Assembly: GCA_021817565.1 (NCBI GenBank)
Contig: JAKAUP010000006.1
Location: 1 to 49,637, forward strand
Length of the DNA stretch: 49,637 nucleotides
Reading direction: 5' to 3'
Source of the DNA: Microcaldota archaeon
GTDB taxonomy: Archaea; Micrarchaeota; Micrarchaeia; Micrarchaeales; Micrarchaeaceae
A program made the translations under genes and the position numbers. Shown piece after piece: positions 9,763-27,046 of this stretch; position 1 is the first letter of the stretch; every line of letters starts with the position of its first letter. The notes under the pieces are model-generated. The model did not search any database. It saw only the letters and a list, made by a program, of their open reading frames with translations, and was not told where the DNA came from.

Positions 9763-9854
9763 AGCCCTGAGAGGGAATTGAACCCTCGACCTTCTGCTTT
9801 ATGTTTATGCTGTCTTAATACCATGCAGACGCTCTACCACTGAGCTACCAGGGC
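9763..9854 (-). tRNA. tRNA-Thr(GGT) with a 20-nt anticodon-loop intron
   Basis: On the minus strand the acceptor stem GCCCTGG pairs with TCAGGGC, followed by discriminator U as in archaeal tRNA-Thr. The D-arm GCTC-AGTGGTAG-AGC, anticodon stem TCTGC/GCAGA and T-arm GAGGG-TTCAATT-CCCTC are complete. The anticodon loop has 27 bases instead of 7; placing an intron of 20 bases after position 37 leaves loop ATGGTA-A and anticodon GGT. The canonical archaeal splice position (37/38) fits; other splice positions would give a Tyr anticodon (GTA), but Tyr needs C1-G72, which is absent. CCA is not encoded. The TATA-like CTTATTTAAG at 9876-9885 lies about 26 bases before the 5' end. Confidence 0.85.
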
Positions 9855-9905: not shown

Positions 9906-10139
9906 GTGTGGTAGATGGGCAGCTTACCGAAAGGAGGAAGCTCTCCCCATGCAGAGCATGCGATGGCCTAAGGCCAAATTCGGAACAGAAACGATACCTC
10001 GAATGCGCATAAAGCGATGACTTATACGAGCGCGCAATAGGGGATGAAACGGCCGATGCGCGTTGCAATGAGCATGCAAGGCAAAATGCCGCTCAGACGA
10101 ATGCTGCCGTAACAGAAGGGAGGCTACGTTCTACCACAC
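9906..10139 (+). ncRNA. rnpB: RNase P RNA, compact archaeal type
   Basis: The catalytic RNA that cuts 5' leaders from pre-tRNAs. Seen: closing helix P1, GTGTGGTAG (9906-9914) pairing perfectly with CTACCACAC (10131-10139); conserved region I as GGAGGAAGCTCTCCCC; the GGAACAGAAACGATACC core; and conserved region V as AGACGAATGCTGCCG...ACAGAAGGGAGGCTA. These blocks occur in the order and spacing of RNase P RNA. The length, about 234 bases, is short compared with most archaeal RNase P RNAs, so peripheral helices are probably reduced. It shares a promoter region with tRNA-Thr, a substrate. Not to be read as coding. Confidence 0.85.
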
Positions 10140-20415: not shown

Positions 20416-20509
20416 TAGCTCCAGCCAGATTCGAACTGGCGTTTACGGCTCCAGAGGCCGCCGTCCTTTTTTGGTTGCTTTGCAGCAATGACCACTAGAC
20501 GATGGAGCT
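20416..20509 (-). tRNA. tRNA-Gln(CTG) with an intron-like insertion in the D-loop
   Basis: Acceptor stem AGCTCCA pairs with TGGAGCT, with A1-U72 as in archaeal tRNA-Gln, and discriminator A. Anticodon arm GCGGC-CTCTGGA-GCCGT gives anticodon CTG. T-arm GCCAG-TTCGAAT-CTGGC is complete. The D-stem GTC/GAC is split by about 20 extra bases (about 20469-20489) containing a hairpin TTGCT-GCAA-AGCAA with a GNRA loop. TGG/CCA can pair next to it, with three-base bulges (TCA and AAA) on opposite sides, which is the bulge-helix-bulge geometry cut by the archaeal splicing endonuclease. Removing it leaves a normal tRNA of about 74 bases. CCA is not encoded. Confidence 0.82.
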
Positions 20510-20532
20510 ATTAAATCTCCTTTCTGCATTAC

Positions 20533-20542: not shown

Positions 20543-20563
20543 CGTTTCTTCACAACTATGGGT

Positions 20564-21253
20564 ATGTACGTGCGTCCGAATCTTTCCTCCAAGAGGGAGC
20601 TAAGAGACATAATAATCGCAGACCTTATACTTACCATAGCCATAGCGTTTACACTGAGCGGCGGGATTGAAAGTCTTTCTGGCAAGGATGCAATTTACAG
20701 TTTCATGTTGCTCATACCAATATCCTTCATTGGCGTTACCCTGAGCTTTGTGTTGCATGAGATGATGCACAAGTTCGCTGCGCAGAAATTCGGGGCAATC
20801 GCAGCATTCCAGAGCAGCACGAACGGCCTTGTAATAACGCTGCTTACCGGATTCTTCGGATTTCTGATTGGAATTCCAGGGGCTACAGTCATATACACAA
20901 ACAGGTTTACAAAGAGGGAGAACGGGATTGTATCGCTCGTAGGTCCACTGACCAACTTCGCCGTCTTTGGTGTTTTCGTAGCAATACTTTACATCTTCAA
21001 TCCAACCGGATACCTATCGAACCTGGTAAGCGTTGTGATATTCATAAGTATAATACTCGCGTTCTTCAACATGCTTCCAATTTTCCCGCTGGATGGGAGC
21101 AAAGTGCTTGCCTGGAATCCAGTCATATACGTCATAACTATGGGCACTATATTCCTGCTTACAATAACCTTTACCGGGATTTCGCTTATCGAAATACTCA
21201 TAATATTCATCATCGCGCTCTTCTTCTCTATGTTTTACAGAAGCATATTATGA
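20564..21253 (+). CDS. M50 (site-2 protease family) membrane metallopeptidase
   Basis: Expected to cleave substrates within or near the membrane. Seen: membrane helix one (IIADLILTIAIAFTL), a helix with the zinc motif HEMMH, a middle part with several helices (VITLLTGFFGFLIGIPGATVIY; SLVGPLTNFAVFGVF), and NMLPIFPLDGSKVL with the third zinc ligand Asp in the FPLDG motif, then a last hydrophobic region. This is the compact archaeal M50 layout without PDZ or CBS domains. I chose ATG 20564 (MYVRPNLSSKREL) because the TATA box is 26 bases away; ATG 20558 is the alternative. The neighbouring downstream operon is for pilus-type assembly; whether the protease processes its products is unknown. Confidence 0.85.
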   Translation: MYVRPNLSSKRELRDIIIADLILTIAIAFTLSGGIESLSGKDAIYSFMLLIPISFIGVTLSFVLHEMMHKFAAQKFGAIAAFQSSTNGLVITLLTGFFGFLIGIPGATVIYTNRFTKRENGIVSLVGPLTNFAVFGVFVAILYIFNPTGYLSNLVSVVIFISIILAFFNMLPIFPLDGSKVLAWNPVIYVITMGTIFLLTITFTGISLIEILIIFIIALFFSMFYRSIL

Positions 21254-22671: not shown

Positions 22672-24168
22672 ATGCCGGATCAAGAAAAGGTTTTCAATGA
22701 GTATGTGCTGGATGTCAACGGGATGAACGCAAACATAAAGATCTACTTCAAAAGGGACGCGTTCGTTCCCATATACGAGGTGAAGTTCGAGGGCGTGACC
22801 GACCCGACCAGATTGCTGCTTATGTCTTTCAGGGTCAACTTGGTATCGATGGTGCCTATCGATCCATCAAGGGTAGACGACAGGGAGTATGTGCAGGAAC
22901 TGAACAGGAGGTACGTGCAGGCGAGCGAACTGCTTATTGACAAGAACTTGCCAAGCACCGAGCCACGCATAAAGAAATTCCTGATAGCTTACATAGTAAA
23001 CATGATGCTTGGGCTCGGTGAGCTGGAGGTGCTCATAGCAGATCAGGACCTTGAAGAGATAACAGTCAATGGTTCAAAATCGGAAGTTTGGGTATTCCAC
23101 AAGAAGGTCGGTTGGGCTAAAACCACAATACAGCCGCAGAGCGAGACGTTTATATACGATCAGGCGCAGCAGATCGGAAGGAAGGTGGGCAGGGAGCTGA
23201 ACAACCTCTCCCCTCTCATGGACGCGGAGCTGACGGACGGCTCCAGGGTAAATGCAACTCTCTTCCCAATATCGCAAAGCGGGAACACGATAACCATCAG
23301 GAAATTCGAGAAGAATCCATGGACAATGCCCGCACTCATCAAGGCCAAGTCGCTGAACTCGGATGTCGCATCATTGATCTGGATGTGCATAGAGAACGAG
23401 ATAAGCCTTCTTGTATCCGGAGGAACAGCCAGTGGAAAGACGAGCTTCCTTAACGCGATAAGCATATTCTTCCCTCCAAGCAGGAGGATCATATCCATAG
23501 AGGAAACCAGGGAGCTTACGCTTCCGAAGTTCTATCAGTGGGTTCCTATGCTCACAAGGCAGCCTAACCCAGAGGGAAAAGGAGCGATAAACCTATATCA
23601 GCTAATGATAAACGCGCTGAGACAGAGGCCTGACATAGTGATGGTCGGAGAGGTAAGGACAAAGGAAGACGCAGAAACGCTGTTCGAGGCGATACATACT
23701 GGGCACTCGGTATATGCAACCCTCCACGCAGACAGCGTAAAAGATACGATAGTCAGGATGACAAATCCACCAATCAGCTCTCCAAAGATCATGATGAACG
23801 CGCTCGGGTGTATCGTTTCACTGATAAGGCACAGGACAAAAAACATAAGAAGGGTCTTGGAATTTGGAGAGATACTCGATTCAGGAGATGCGAACGTTCT
23901 GTACAAGTGGGACTACTTGAACGACACCACTGCAAAGGCTAACGAGATGACAAAACTCGCGGAAACGCTTATGCTTTATGCGGGCGTGACAAAGGAGGAG
24001 ATATACAAGATCATAGAGGAGCACAAGATAGTGCTTGACTGGATGACTGATAAGAACATAATCGATGTGGATGATGCCGGATTTGTTATAGCGCAGTACT
24101 ACAGGGATAAAACCAGGGTGTTGGAGCTTGCAAGGACAAAGGCTGATTTCGATTACAAAAGTTTCTAG
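22672..24168 (+). CDS. Type II/IV secretion ATPase (ArlI/GspE/TadA-like)
   Basis: The cytoplasmic hexameric motor that drives assembly of type IV pilus-like filaments. Seen in 498 residues: an N-terminal domain of about 115 residues, ELEVLIADQDLEEITVNG (residues 117-134, the usual entry to the CpaF/ArlI core), RVNATLFP, ITIRKF, Walker A GGTASGKT (250-257), an Asp/Glu box IEETRELTLP, Walker B DIVMVGEVR (321-329), and the His box AIHTGHSVYATLHAD (340-354). The C-terminus adds about 130 residues. It lies between the coiled-coil protein and two TadC/ArlJ-type membrane proteins, the usual core of an archaeal pilus system. No pilin gene is inside the operon, so substrates are likely encoded elsewhere, for instance at 10.1, 45.4 and 48.6 kb. 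Confidence 0.9.
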   Translation: MPDQEKVFNEYVLDVNGMNANIKIYFKRDAFVPIYEVKFEGVTDPTRLLLMSFRVNLVSMVPIDPSRVDDREYVQELNRRYVQASELLIDKNLPSTEPRIKKFLIAYIVNMMLGLGELEVLIADQDLEEITVNGSKSEVWVFHKKVGWAKTTIQPQSETFIYDQAQQIGRKVGRELNNLSPLMDAELTDGSRVNATLFPISQSGNTITIRKFEKNPWTMPALIKAKSLNSDVASLIWMCIENEISLLVSGGTASGKTSFLNAISIFFPPSRRIISIEETRELTLPKFYQWVPMLTRQPNPEGKGAINLYQLMINALRQRPDIVMVGEVRTKEDAETLFEAIHTGHSVYATLHADSVKDTIVRMTNPPISSPKIMMNALGCIVSLIRHRTKNIRRVLEFGEILDSGDANVLYKWDYLNDTTAKANEMTKLAETLMLYAGVTKEEIYKIIEEHKIVLDWMTDKNIIDVDDAGFVIAQYYRDKTRVLELARTKADFDYKSF

Positions 24169-24177
24169 GTAAACGTG

Positions 24178-24681
24178 ATGGATAGAGATGTATCTGGAGG
24201 CGGTGCAAAACCAAGCAGTTATTCGGAGCTTGCAGCGTCGATAAAGCAGATGGAAAAGGAGATACCACAAAAGGAATATGAAGACGAGATCGACATATCC
24301 GACCTCATTGAGTCAGAGATGAACGAGGAGAGACATACGGAATACAAGCAGATGCTCGACTTTCTGGTGAGAGAGGGCGCGGCACATCCAAAACAGCAGT
24401 TTAAACCTGCGGCTCAAAAGCAGCAGGTCGAAGTGAGGGATATAGAGGAGTTGATACTCCCAAAGCTCTCGTTTACTGACCAAGTCGCAGAGCTTGAAAG
24501 GATAAGCGAAGCGGTAGCGCAGGGAGTGCTTGACCAGAGACATATGACGGTTGTTGTGCAAGAAGTTTACGGGCTTAAGTCCGCAATAGCCCTGCAGAAA
24601 AACGATAATGAGGATCCTGCGCTGGTAAGTTTTAGGGACAGCATACTGGACGATATAATAAAGAGAATAGGGGGCAGCTGA
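24178..24681 (+). CDS. Small acidic hypothetical protein of the pilus-type operon
   Basis: Not recognised. About 167 residues, soluble, acidic at the N-terminus (KEYEDEIDISDLIESEMNEE), with a Pro/Gln-rich spacer and a helical C-terminal half (LSFTDQVAELERISEAVAQGVL...). The frame opens with a GTG at 24175; the ATG three bases later is the more likely start. It sits 9 bases after the ATPase stop, and its TGA overlaps the ATG of the next gene (TGATG). This tight packing implies that the product works with the ATPase and membrane platform, perhaps as an adaptor; there is no motif to prove it. Confidence 0.7.
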   Translation: MDRDVSGGGAKPSSYSELAASIKQMEKEIPQKEYEDEIDISDLIESEMNEERHTEYKQMLDFLVREGAAHPKQQFKPAAQKQQVEVRDIEELILPKLSFTDQVAELERISEAVAQGVLDQRHMTVVVQEVYGLKSAIALQKNDNEDPALVSFRDSILDDIIKRIGGS

Positions 24682-26048
24682 TGTTCGAAAAGAAAAAGAA
24701 GGTTGTGAATGTTGACGGGAAGGAAGTGGTGCTCGAGCCGAAGCCGCGCTTCTCGCTTTTCAAGAAAAAGGGCGTTCAGCAGAAACCTACAACCAATTCC
24801 CCAACTCTTCAGCCGCAGGCCAGACCTCAAACCACAGCCACACCTCCGGCGCCTCAGCCCCAACTAGGTAAAATGCCGCAACCTCAAACCCCTCAATTCA
24901 AACCAGCGTCTCAACCTCAAACCATTCAACAACCCCAATCCAAGCCTGCAGCCCAACCTCCGAACGCCCCAAAACCAAGCACAGGTGCATCCACTACTCA
25001 AACCCAACCTCAAACCCCTCTGTCGCGCCCTGTGCCACCACCCAATATCGCATCACAGCCTTCAAGTCAGGCACCCTCAAGAGCAGTTCCCACCCAGAAT
25101 CCATCACAGACAATCTCAAACAGGGTTGCAGCTCAGGCAGCGCAGCAGCGAAGCGCTGTCCAGCCCACTGGGCGTCCATCATACCAAAAGATAGGAAAGC
25201 CAGGGTACAAGAGCGGATTCGTATCAAAATACGTCGGTAAGACGCTCTCAAAGCACAAGGATCTTCCGGCCATACTTAAATCAGAGAATGTCGCAGGTAC
25301 GCCGGAGGACTTCATAAAGCGAATGCTCTTCTCATCAATCATTGTAGCCATTATGATTGCAGTGGCCGCAGTAATACTATTCTTGAGATTGGGACAGACA
25401 TTCATTCTGTCAGCGTTATTCGGCATTGTGCTCGGCTTCGTGTTTTTCAGGATGGCATTCAGCACGTTCGTAAACTATCCGAAAAGCAAGAGGAACAAGA
25501 GCGAAAAGGGGGTTGAGAAGGACATACTGTTCGCGGCGCGCGACCTGATCATATCTCTCAGGTCAGGCATGCCCCTATACAACGCGATGGCATCAGTGAG
25601 TACGGGTTACGGGGACGCCAGCATCCAGTTCAGGAAGATTATAGAGCTCGTGCAACTCGGCTCACCGCTCGAGGATGCTATCGACAAGCAGATAGCTGAG
25701 ACAAAAAGCCCGTCGTTCCGAAGGCTCATGATACAGGCATCAGTCAGCGTAAGGGCAGGAGCCGACGTGGTCGCTTCATTGCAGACAGTGCTTGACGACC
25801 TGCAGCAAGAAAGGATGATAGAGCTGAGGAGGTACGGGCAGAAGCTGAACGCAATCGCAATGTTCTACATGCTCTTCGGGGTAATACTCCCCAGCATGGG
25901 TTTGGCAGTGGGCACAATACTTACCACGTTCATCTCCCTGTTCCAGATAACGCCGCAGATACTGTTCGGCGCGCTCATAGGTATAGGATTCCTGCAGGTT
26001 GTATTCTTGAAGCTGATAACCAGCTCCAGGCCAGTGTTTAGCATGTGA
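24681..26048 (+). CDS. TadC/ArlJ-type pilus assembly membrane protein with Pro/Gln-rich N-terminus
   Basis: The membrane platform of a type IV pilus-like machine (T2SSF fold). Residues 1-28 are basic (MFEKKKKVVNVDGKEVVLEP), residues about 30-160 are a low-complexity Pro/Gln/Thr/Ser stretch, and from about 180 the protein is folded: MLFSSIIVAIMIAVAAVILFL and FGIVLGFVFFRMAF as first membrane pair, ARDLIISLRSGMPLYNAM (typical T2SSF entry), RLMIQASVSVRAGADVVASLQTVLDDL, and a second pair of helices (AMFYMLFGVILPSMGLAVG and LFGALIGIGFLQVVFLKL). The long disordered N-terminal tail is unusual for this family and may tether the ATPase. Start and stop overlap its neighbours (TGATG on both sides), so translation is coupled. 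Confidence 0.85.
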   Translation: MFEKKKKVVNVDGKEVVLEPKPRFSLFKKKGVQQKPTTNSPTLQPQARPQTTATPPAPQPQLGKMPQPQTPQFKPASQPQTIQQPQSKPAAQPPNAPKPSTGASTTQTQPQTPLSRPVPPPNIASQPSSQAPSRAVPTQNPSQTISNRVAAQAAQQRSAVQPTGRPSYQKIGKPGYKSGFVSKYVGKTLSKHKDLPAILKSENVAGTPEDFIKRMLFSSIIVAIMIAVAAVILFLRLGQTFILSALFGIVLGFVFFRMAFSTFVNYPKSKRNKSEKGVEKDILFAARDLIISLRSGMPLYNAMASVSTGYGDASIQFRKIIELVQLGSPLEDAIDKQIAETKSPSFRRLMIQASVSVRAGADVVASLQTVLDDLQQERMIELRRYGQKLNAIAMFYMLFGVILPSMGLAVGTILTTFISLFQITPQILFGALIGIGFLQVVFLKLITSSRPVFSM

Positions 26049-27046
26049 TGTTTATGGCGATAAATTTCGAAAGGCTCGTGTCAAGAAGGGTCGGAAAGAT
26101 GCTCCAGGATACGCTGAATCTCTCTGGCTCCCAAATGCTGTTGAATACCCTTCTGGAATACATGATCATCGGCTTCTTCGCGATAGTTATAGTGGGTTTG
26201 GGAGTAATGTCGCTCATCCTTAAACTCAAGGTGATCGAGGCCTTCCCAATAAGCGTGATATCTGGGCTGGTATATATAGTACTGATATATGGAGTATTGA
26301 ACTACAGATTGGACAAGCGCGCGACCACGATGGAAAGCATACTTCCTGAATATTTCCAGCTTGTAGCGGCAAACCTGCGCAGCGGAATGTCCATAGACAG
26401 GTCTATGCTCATAGCGGCAAGGCCAGAGTTTACCCCGTTTGCGGAAGATGTGCAGAAGATGAACAACAGGCTTTTCAGCGGTGAGAGCTTCGATGTTGCC
26501 CTACACAAGCTTGCCGCAAGCTATAGGTCAAACACGCTAACGCGTTCAGTAAGGCTGATATCGGAATCGTACAGGTTCGGGGGAAGGATGGCCGACCTGA
26601 TGGAGCAGATATCTAAGGACATAAGGAGTCAGCAGATAGTGCAGAAGGAGATAGCCGGACAGCTCTTCATGTACAGCATATTCATAGCCTTCGCAGGCCT
26701 TGTTGCTGCGCCCGTGCTCTACGGTCTTACTGGGGAGATGATAAAGATAACTGATACAGTATGGACAGGCATACTCGCAAGCAACCCAGGCGGATTGCCA
26801 TCAACCGGTTCCTCCTTCCTCAAGCCTCAACCGCCAGTGATAACAGTCGCACAGTACCACCTCTTCTCCTACATGGCAATTATTATAATAACAGGGTTCG
26901 CAGCGCTGATAATGGCTGCGATAAACTCCGGAAAGCCTGTGCGCGGAATCCGCCTCATACCTGTATTCATACTCATAGGTTTAGGTGTATTCCTGGTGGT
27001 TGGATCTGTGGTCGCAGGCCTCTTTGGGAGCATAGGCGCAGCCTAG
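26048..27046 (+). CDS. Second TadC/ArlJ-type pilus assembly membrane protein
   Basis: A paralogue of the preceding platform protein without the disordered tail. Seen: a short amphipathic start (INFERLVSRRVGKMLQDTL), helices LEYMIIGFFAIVIVGLGVMS and VISGLVYIVLIYGVL, the T2SSF core EYFQLVAANLRSGMSIDRSMLIAARPEF and SVRLISESYRFGGRMADLMEQIS, then LFMYSIFIAFAGLVAAPVLYGL and two further helices (MAIIIITGFAALIMAAI and FILIGLGVFLVVGSVVAGLFG). The ATG at 26048 overlaps the previous stop (TGATG); the frame can also open at GTG 26045 or ATG 26054. Two unlike platform proteins side by side suggest a heteromeric membrane base, as in Tad-type systems. It is the last gene of the operon; a new promoter precedes the next gene. 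Confidence 0.85.
   Translation: MFMAINFERLVSRRVGKMLQDTLNLSGSQMLLNTLLEYMIIGFFAIVIVGLGVMSLILKLKVIEAFPISVISGLVYIVLIYGVLNYRLDKRATTMESILPEYFQLVAANLRSGMSIDRSMLIAARPEFTPFAEDVQKMNNRLFSGESFDVALHKLAASYRSNTLTRSVRLISESYRFGGRMADLMEQISKDIRSQQIVQKEIAGQLFMYSIFIAFAGLVAAPVLYGLTGEMIKITDTVWTGILASNPGGLPSTGSSFLKPQPPVITVAQYHLFSYMAIIIITGFAALIMAAINSGKPVRGIRLIPVFILIGLGVFLVVGSVVAGLFGSIGAA

Follow-up and report, generated by a model that had tools for sequence, protein, structure and literature searches.

The window (the whole stretch of DNA analysed, 49,637 nt) of a Micrarchaeota genome contains a tRNA-Gln(CTG) gene whose D-loop is interrupted by a 21-nt insert. The insert is very probably a tRNA intron of the archaeal, protein-spliced type that occupies a non-canonical site in tRNA-Gln(CUG), between positions 20a and 20b, since the form of the gene without it occurs uninterrupted in four relatives. 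Comparison of the sequences points to a bulge-helix-bulge (BHB) motif with predicted cleavage at UC^A and AA^A.

Structure and detection of the tRNA-Gln(CTG) gene

The gene is located on the minus strand from 20509 to 20416 and comprises 94 nt, which parse as AGCTCCA-TC-GTCT-AGTGGTC[ATTGCTGCAAAGCAACCAAAA]AA-GGAC-G-GCGGC-CTCTGGA-GCCGT-AAAC-GCCAGTTCGAATCTGGC-TGGAGCT-A. All parts of the cloverleaf are present, including a 7-bp acceptor stem, the D-stem GTCT/GGAC, the T-arm and A73, and the anticodon loop CTCTGGA gives the anticodon CTG (Gln). The D-loop with its insert reads AGTGG-TCA-TTGCT-GCAA-AGCAA-CCAA-AAA-A. Under conventional tRNA numbering, which is taken to apply here, C20a ends exon 1 and GTGG contains G18G19. 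These two residues are needed for the tRNA elbow. The coordinates of the features are listed in Table 1.

Table 1. Features of the interrupted tRNA-Gln(CTG) gene and its surroundings (positions in the window)
Feature	Position	Strand	Details and basis
tRNA-Gln(CTG) gene	20416..20509	-	94 nt with intron, 73 nt without; sequence, parse, Rfam 24.9 bits
Exon 1: acceptor 5' strand, D-stem 5' strand, D-loop to C20a	20490..20509	-	
Exon 2: D-loop A20b-A21, D-stem 3' strand, anticodon arm (CTG), variable loop, T-arm, acceptor 3' strand, A73	20416..20468	-	
D-loop intron (very probable), 21 nt, ATTGCTGCAAAGCAACCAAAA	20469..20489	-	Comparison with uninterrupted genes and BHB cut rule
BHB central helix, 5' strand GTGG, in exon	20492..20495	-	Parse and pairing count
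BHB bulge 1, TC^A, predicted 5' splice site	20489..20491	-	Parse, pairing, uninterrupted relatives
Intron hairpin TTGCT-GCAA-AGCAA	20475..20488	-	Folding and insert comparison
BHB central helix, 3' strand CCAA, in intron	20471..20474	-	3 pairs and a G.A mismatch
BHB bulge 2, AA^A, predicted 3' splice site	20468..20470	-	Parse, pairing, uninterrupted relatives
TATA-like promoter element CTTATAAA	20535..20542	-	Starts 33 nt upstream of the tRNA; 8/8 positions
M50-family peptidase gene, divergent neighbour	20558..21253	+	Pfam PF02163; synteny by tblastn

Standard finders do not report the gene. The Rfam tRNA model gives it a score under the 29-bit cut-off, and ARAGORN detected only a tRNA-Thr in the window and missed the tRNA-Gln gene. 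Because the two finders run miss the gene, CAG-decoding tRNAs may be reported as missing or misnamed in such genomes. Failure in ARAGORN and at the Rfam cut-off would also fit a pseudogene or an assembly error, as would the presence of a second glutamine tRNA gene in the genome, tRNA-Gln(TTG) (L026), which could read CAG by wobble. This explanation is extremely improbable. Every exon part of the interrupted gene pairs, a TATA-like element lies upstream, and the gene is the sole match to a tRNA-Gln(CTG) query in its genome. An insert is also found at the same site elsewhere: a gene pattern that allowed an insert of 12-42 nt had hits in 33 of the 301 genomes searched within the phylum and misses at least G015, G053 and G037, in which loops or lengths differ, whereas a reversed control pattern matched 0. 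The matches include the complete chromosome of strain A_DKE, whose interrupted tRNA-Gln gene is labelled tRNA-Gly by ARAGORN.

The TATA-like element was found with at least 7 of 8 positions in 71 of 77 tRNA-Gln loci, a count made without a shuffled control; the intron-free loci L050 and L097 have only 6.

Filled and empty sites in relatives

tRNA-Gln(CTG) genes were sought by tRNA-gene similarity in the window's genome and 98 relatives (99 genomes in all), and matches were obtained in 91. After the anticodon and arms were read, 84 of the 99 genomes could be scored and 15 were left unscored. Ten genes with a T-loop lacking TTC were read by eye, a fragmentary copy (L066) was dropped, and as a rule a single gene was read for each genome. 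An insert is present at the D-loop site in 28 of the 84 genomes with a readable gene, the window's included, and absent from the other 56. By family, 25 of 53 genomes of the window's family and 3 of 31 of the sister family have the insert. In the closest relatives, GTCT-AGTGGTCAA-GGAC stands at the empty site, and the D-loop of the uninterrupted relatives read is 9 nt long and ends in AA.

When the insert is removed, the remaining 73 nt of the window's gene are identical, letter for letter, to the uninterrupted genes L047, L050, L052 and L053 of four genomes. The Rfam model scores L047 at 62.9 bits, and ARAGORN detects L047, L050 and the intron-free L097. The sequence-only reading had described a tRNA-Gln with a D-loop intron of about 20 bases whose removal restores a normal tRNA. 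Its identification of the gene and intron is borne out by the parse, by the empty site in most scored genomes and by the identical uninterrupted genes, which also agree with the claim of a normal tRNA after removal; the insert is real and its exact length is 21 nt.

An exact uninterrupted partner exists for 10 of 37 distinct intron-bearing genes, and the other 27 have none among the loci compared. The ten partnered genes yield two spliced forms: nine share the form of the window's gene, and the tenth, L153, without its insert equals L088 and L098 exactly. The L153 insert also occurs in G212 and G213, which belong to the genus of L088 and L098 in the sister family, where L088 and L098 lack it.

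The M50-family peptidase gene adjoins the tRNA gene in 26 of 30 loci for which flanking sequence of up to about 3 kb was compared by tblastn. The insert is present in 20 of these loci, one of which (L057) is from the sister family, and absent from six (L047, L050, L052, L053, L056 and L058). Because the M50 gene flanks both states, filled and empty sites represent the same orthologous locus. Such a filled and an empty site at one locus in close relatives provide a natural series for the study of tRNA intron gain and loss, and the series bears on whether the type of endonuclease limits where introns are placed.

The fragmentary copy L066 (G019:C21:31203-31457) is a tRNA-Gln(CTG) that lacks most of the D-arm as well as the acceptor 5' strand, located about 4 kb from the intact copy L069 (G019:C21:26971-27225). 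It is possibly the scar of an element integrated in a tRNA gene.

Insert borders and BHB geometry

Sequence comparison leaves the insert borders ambiguous by one base, as 20468-20488 fits the sequence equally well; the BHB cut rule favours 20469-20489. By this rule, given in PMC4307357, cleavage takes place between the second and third bulge residues. The window's gene has a relaxed BHB in which exon GUGG faces CCAA of the insert, with 3-nt bulges UCA and AAA and a G.A mismatch as the fourth pair. Judged from the empty sites, the cuts (TC^A and AA^A) would fall between the second and third residues of each bulge, matching the rule. The BHB-like arrangement with TCA and AAA bulges noted in the sequence-only reading is thus present, and its GUGG pairing exceeds that of shuffled inserts.

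When anchored, the inserts begin after GTGG-(T/A)C and stop before AAGGAY; these ends are partly preset by the pattern used in the genome search, but not by the tRNA similarity search. The side facing GTGG in the window's family is CCAA in 8 of 25 inserts, CCAT in 11 of 25, and CTAT, CCGC, CTGC, CCGT or CTAC in the remainder. Every one of these variants keeps four central pairs (G.U counted) except CCAA, which has three. ACAT or ACAC occurs in four inserts outside the family, with the loss of one central pair. Over the 37 distinct inserts, at least three of the four central pairs (G.U counted) are formed in 35 and all four in 23. In 2000 rounds of shuffling the insert letters, at least three pairs were formed in a mean of 11.2 inserts (maximum 22) and four pairs in a mean of 2.2 (maximum 9). 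These pairing counts, and those of the inner helix below, are not probabilities, because the inserts come from related sequences. In the inserts of G117 and L161 the helix is another one, read by eye as GGTC with GACT, and these two may have been gained separately.

The inner helix of the insert was compared with sets in which the 3' arms had been swapped. For the 12 distinct arm pairs of the window's family with five pairs (hairpins too short for five were dropped), 56 of 60 cells are paired; the swapped sets had a mean of 47.3, and 0 of 5000 were as good. Over four pairs, the family has 16 of 16 cells paired, but 426 of 5000 swaps equalled this, with only four distinct arm pairs. Outside the family, 23 of 28 cells (8 of 5000 swaps as good) and 24 of 30 cells (53 of 5000) are paired. 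The long G037 insert was excluded from this comparison. A GNRA tetraloop caps 3 of the 37 distinct inserts, those of the window's genome (GCAA), its one congener (GAGA) and one sister-family genome (GCAA). The GNRA cap described earlier therefore exists here, and as a general feature of the inserts it is rejected.

The stretch 20419-20513, which is without the last three bases of the gene and forms five acceptor pairs, folds as a cloverleaf plus insert hairpin at -32.8 kcal/mol (z = -2.77), with 2 of 200 shuffles as good. For the D-arm alone the case is weaker, and its folds do not stand out: z is -1.77 in the window's species and 13 of 200 shuffles fold as well; the corresponding numbers are 22 of 200 for G027, 24 of 200 for L135 and 177 of 200 for L140. 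Overall, the insert exceeds chance because other genomes share the site, others cleanly lack the insert, and the GUGG pairing beats that of shuffled inserts.

Since the minimum-energy fold places the insert as a D-arm hairpin, it might be retained in the mature tRNA as an enlargement of that arm. Retention is nevertheless very unlikely. The insert pairs with the exon segment GUGG, which bears the elbow-essential G18G19, and within the family CCAU, CCGU, CCGC, CUGC, CUAU and CUAC all preserve this pairing, which exceeds that of shuffled inserts. The inserts, all at one fixed D-loop site, are 13-49 nt long, 56 of the 84 scored genomes do without an insert, and the genome encodes a splicing endonuclease of the broad-specificity type.

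Removal as an intron could also take place in a shifted register. The lowest-energy fold of the window's species has the helix displaced by one base, with UGGU pairing with ACCA and a bulge CAU, and cutting at CA^U and AA^A would leave a D-loop two bases longer. This register is highly improbable, as the resulting D-loop would be longer than the 9-nt loop ending in AA of any uninterrupted relative read. Moreover, the shifted pair is impossible in species with A after GTGG (e.g., G010 and G018), yet the ends of the insert are the same there.

Splicing endonuclease and proposed mechanism

The window's genome contains one EndA reading frame of 386 aa, in which PF01974 and PF02778 each match in two stretches; a further PF01974 match elsewhere in the genome is far below the cut-off. 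Residues 10-386 match the ARMAN-2 endonuclease (4FZ2/9W2K) with 535 bits, and the protein is, on the evidence of this alignment, assigned as an ARMAN-2-type three-unit (epsilon2) endonuclease. The search for a three-unit endonuclease as known from ARMAN, suggested along with the original reading, thus had a positive outcome in the same genome. Tyr160, Lys161, Tyr236, His251 (250 here) and Lys282 (281 here) occur in 85 of 85 aligned EndA sequences, the window's included. Catalytic Tyr, His and Lys and an ARMAN-specific loop with Tyr160/Lys161 are described for the ARMAN-2 enzyme in PMC12397907 and PMC6379350.

The proposed mechanism involves three steps. In the precursor, the 3' part of the intron (CCAA) would pair with exon GUGG, which leaves two 3-nt bulges, UCA on one strand and AAA on the other. 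The three-unit EndA would then cleave each bulge after its second base. The 21-nt intron would be released, and a ligase would join the exons of 20 nt and 53 nt. While in place, the intron would cover G18G19, and to judge from general tRNA structure the normal contact between D-loop and T-loop would form only upon its removal; the elbow would be blocked in the precursor because the intron pairs with the GUGG that holds these residues.

EndA was found in 96 of the 99 genomes, the window's included. Because the enzyme is so widely present, it does not explain which genomes hold the intron, and endonuclease presence was rejected as an explanation, the intron being absent from 56 of 84 genomes.

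PF01974 was also searched in eight genomes, namely those of the seven Woesearchaeota, Aenigmarchaeota and other archaeal matches to the insert pattern (described below) and that of L159, and matches were obtained in six. The genomes with L137, L145, L158 and L165 (G302, G304, G305 and G306) contain, above the cut-off, only frames of 191-222 aa, which are classed as one-unit from their length. An additional match in G302 is far below the cut-off (12.7 bits). G307 (Aenigmarchaeota, L161) has a one-unit frame of 204 aa and a longer frame, of 399 aa, in which PF01974 matches in two stretches, and G308, which holds L159 and belongs to another family of Micrarchaeota, has a PF01974 frame of 297 aa. 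No PF01974 match was found in G301 and G303, both genomes of unstated completeness. The four one-unit-only genomes outside the phylum have the site interrupted, so that the need of a D-loop intron for a three-unit enzyme is not demonstrated. The earlier claim that a broad-specificity endonuclease is needed is consequently upheld as to the presence of this type in the genome, and a requirement for the three-unit form is not upheld.

Wider distribution and evolution

The insert pattern matched 37 stretches in a named genome collection. Titles of 27 stretches name Micrarchaeota, Micrarchaeum or Mancarchaeum, and these include the A_DKE chromosome. Strain A_DKE is Ca. Micrarchaeum harzensis, which is cultured and has an intron at the same tRNA-Gln site; as RNA reads of its co-culture have been deposited (BioSamples SAMN15702898 and SAMN15702859, PMC8975820), the splicing prediction is testable soon. 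Two stretches titled Marsarchaeota, L136 and L144, seem to belong to Micrarchaeota, as their inserts are like those of the Micrarchaeota genomes G040 and G269, respectively. Seven others are from two Woesearchaeota, four Aenigmarchaeota and one other archaeon. The match in L150 (Poseidoniaceae) was rejected, as by eye it is not a tRNA.

Further apparent interruptions accompany some of these sites. The Woesearchaeota loci L135 and L137 have a D-loop insert of 14-15 nt and an apparent second insert next to the anticodon, and L165 also has an apparent interruption next to the anticodon. The Aenigmarchaeota locus L161 has a 30-nt D-loop insert in another register and an apparent T-arm insert.

The presence of the intron was mapped on an EndA tree, a one-gene tree of 84 rows built by a quick method. 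The alignment comprises 85 of the 96 EndA matches; G025 was left off the tree for its long branch, G023 is absent because its EndA is split between contigs, and G062 and G067 are unlabelled for intron state as their anticodons were unparsed. The mapping requires 13 changes, at least four of which are forced by starred branches. Shuffled labels gave a mean of 22.5-22.6 changes, with 0 of 500 as low as 13, and the trait is therefore clustered but changeable. The change counts do not separate gain from loss. G042 and G020, fully supported sisters of one genus, have opposite states. A single origin of the intron within the order without later change is unsupported on this one-gene tree. This repeated gain or loss speaks against an essential function of the intron.

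It seems from the sequences that the D-loop site is interrupted in several DPANN phyla under different enzyme types. A broader interpretation is tentative and rather doubtful: the D-loop of tRNA-Gln(CUG) might be a recurrent intron site of DPANN archaea (Micrarchaeota, Woesearchaeota and Aenigmarchaeota), holding introns of 13-49 nt that mostly have an exon-pairing end like CCAU and are processed by a three-unit or one-unit enzyme. The site could then represent either an old intron repeatedly lost or kept or a place that attracts insertions, and masking of G18G19 could prevent the precursor from adopting its final fold before it is spliced.

Relation to known systems

That archaeal tRNAs can carry introns in the D-arm is already established (PMC12397907, PMC6379350), in agreement with the earlier remark that D-loop introns are known in some archaea. 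The tRNA-Gln intron is very probably another instance of this known kind. No mention of a D-loop intron in a DPANN tRNA-Gln was found in the literature searched, which consisted of partial texts and excluded the 2011 ARMAN study. tRNAscan-SE 2.0 reported 673 non-canonical introns in 217 archaeal genomes (PMC8450103).

The D-arm introns of tRNA-Glu(UUC) and tRNA-Glu(CUC) of Sulfolobus tokodaii are cut in vitro by the EndA of that organism (PMC4307357). They resemble the present intron in their D-arm site and BHB-like structure, and border redundancy (there CAAG..aaagt) likewise leaves the borders ambiguous from sequence alone. The tRNA and the phylum are different, and the enzyme is crenarchaeal there, whereas it is of the three-unit type here. 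In ARMAN-2 (Ca. Micrarchaeum acidiphilum), the epsilon2 endonuclease removes non-canonical tRNA introns (PMC12397907, PMC6379350). The two cases share the phylum, the non-canonical introns and the endonuclease type with its ARMAN-specific loop, whereas the EndA substrates named in the part of PMC12397907 available are pre-tRNA-Ile(UAU) and pre-tRNA-Cys(GCA) rather than tRNA-Gln. Canonical archaeal introns at 37/38 with a strict BHB have a 4-bp helix and 3-nt bulges (PMC4090602), a plan that the present intron follows in relaxed form; it differs in its D-loop site and in the one mismatched central pair of the window's species.

Other RNA genes and gene clusters

Six other tRNAs of the window's genome, encoded on other contigs (L126, L128, L129, L130, L131 and L132), contain T-loop inserts of 11-28 nt, and their T-stems and acceptor stems are intact. 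From their sequences, these inserts are taken as putative further non-canonical introns. The Rfam matches of the six tRNAs are weak or partial because of the inserts. Given these six, the D-loop intron is not the only non-canonical one of the genome, which provides supporting context for the mechanism proposed above.

An archaeal RNase P RNA is located at 9907-10138 of the window, 52 bases from a divergent tRNA-Thr gene (9763-9854), which has an insert in its anticodon loop. The region 22672-27046 encodes a secretion-type ATPase (PF00437) followed by two T2SSF-family membrane proteins (PF00482), and is assigned, on the basis of these domains, as a putative archaeal pilus or archaellum-like cluster.
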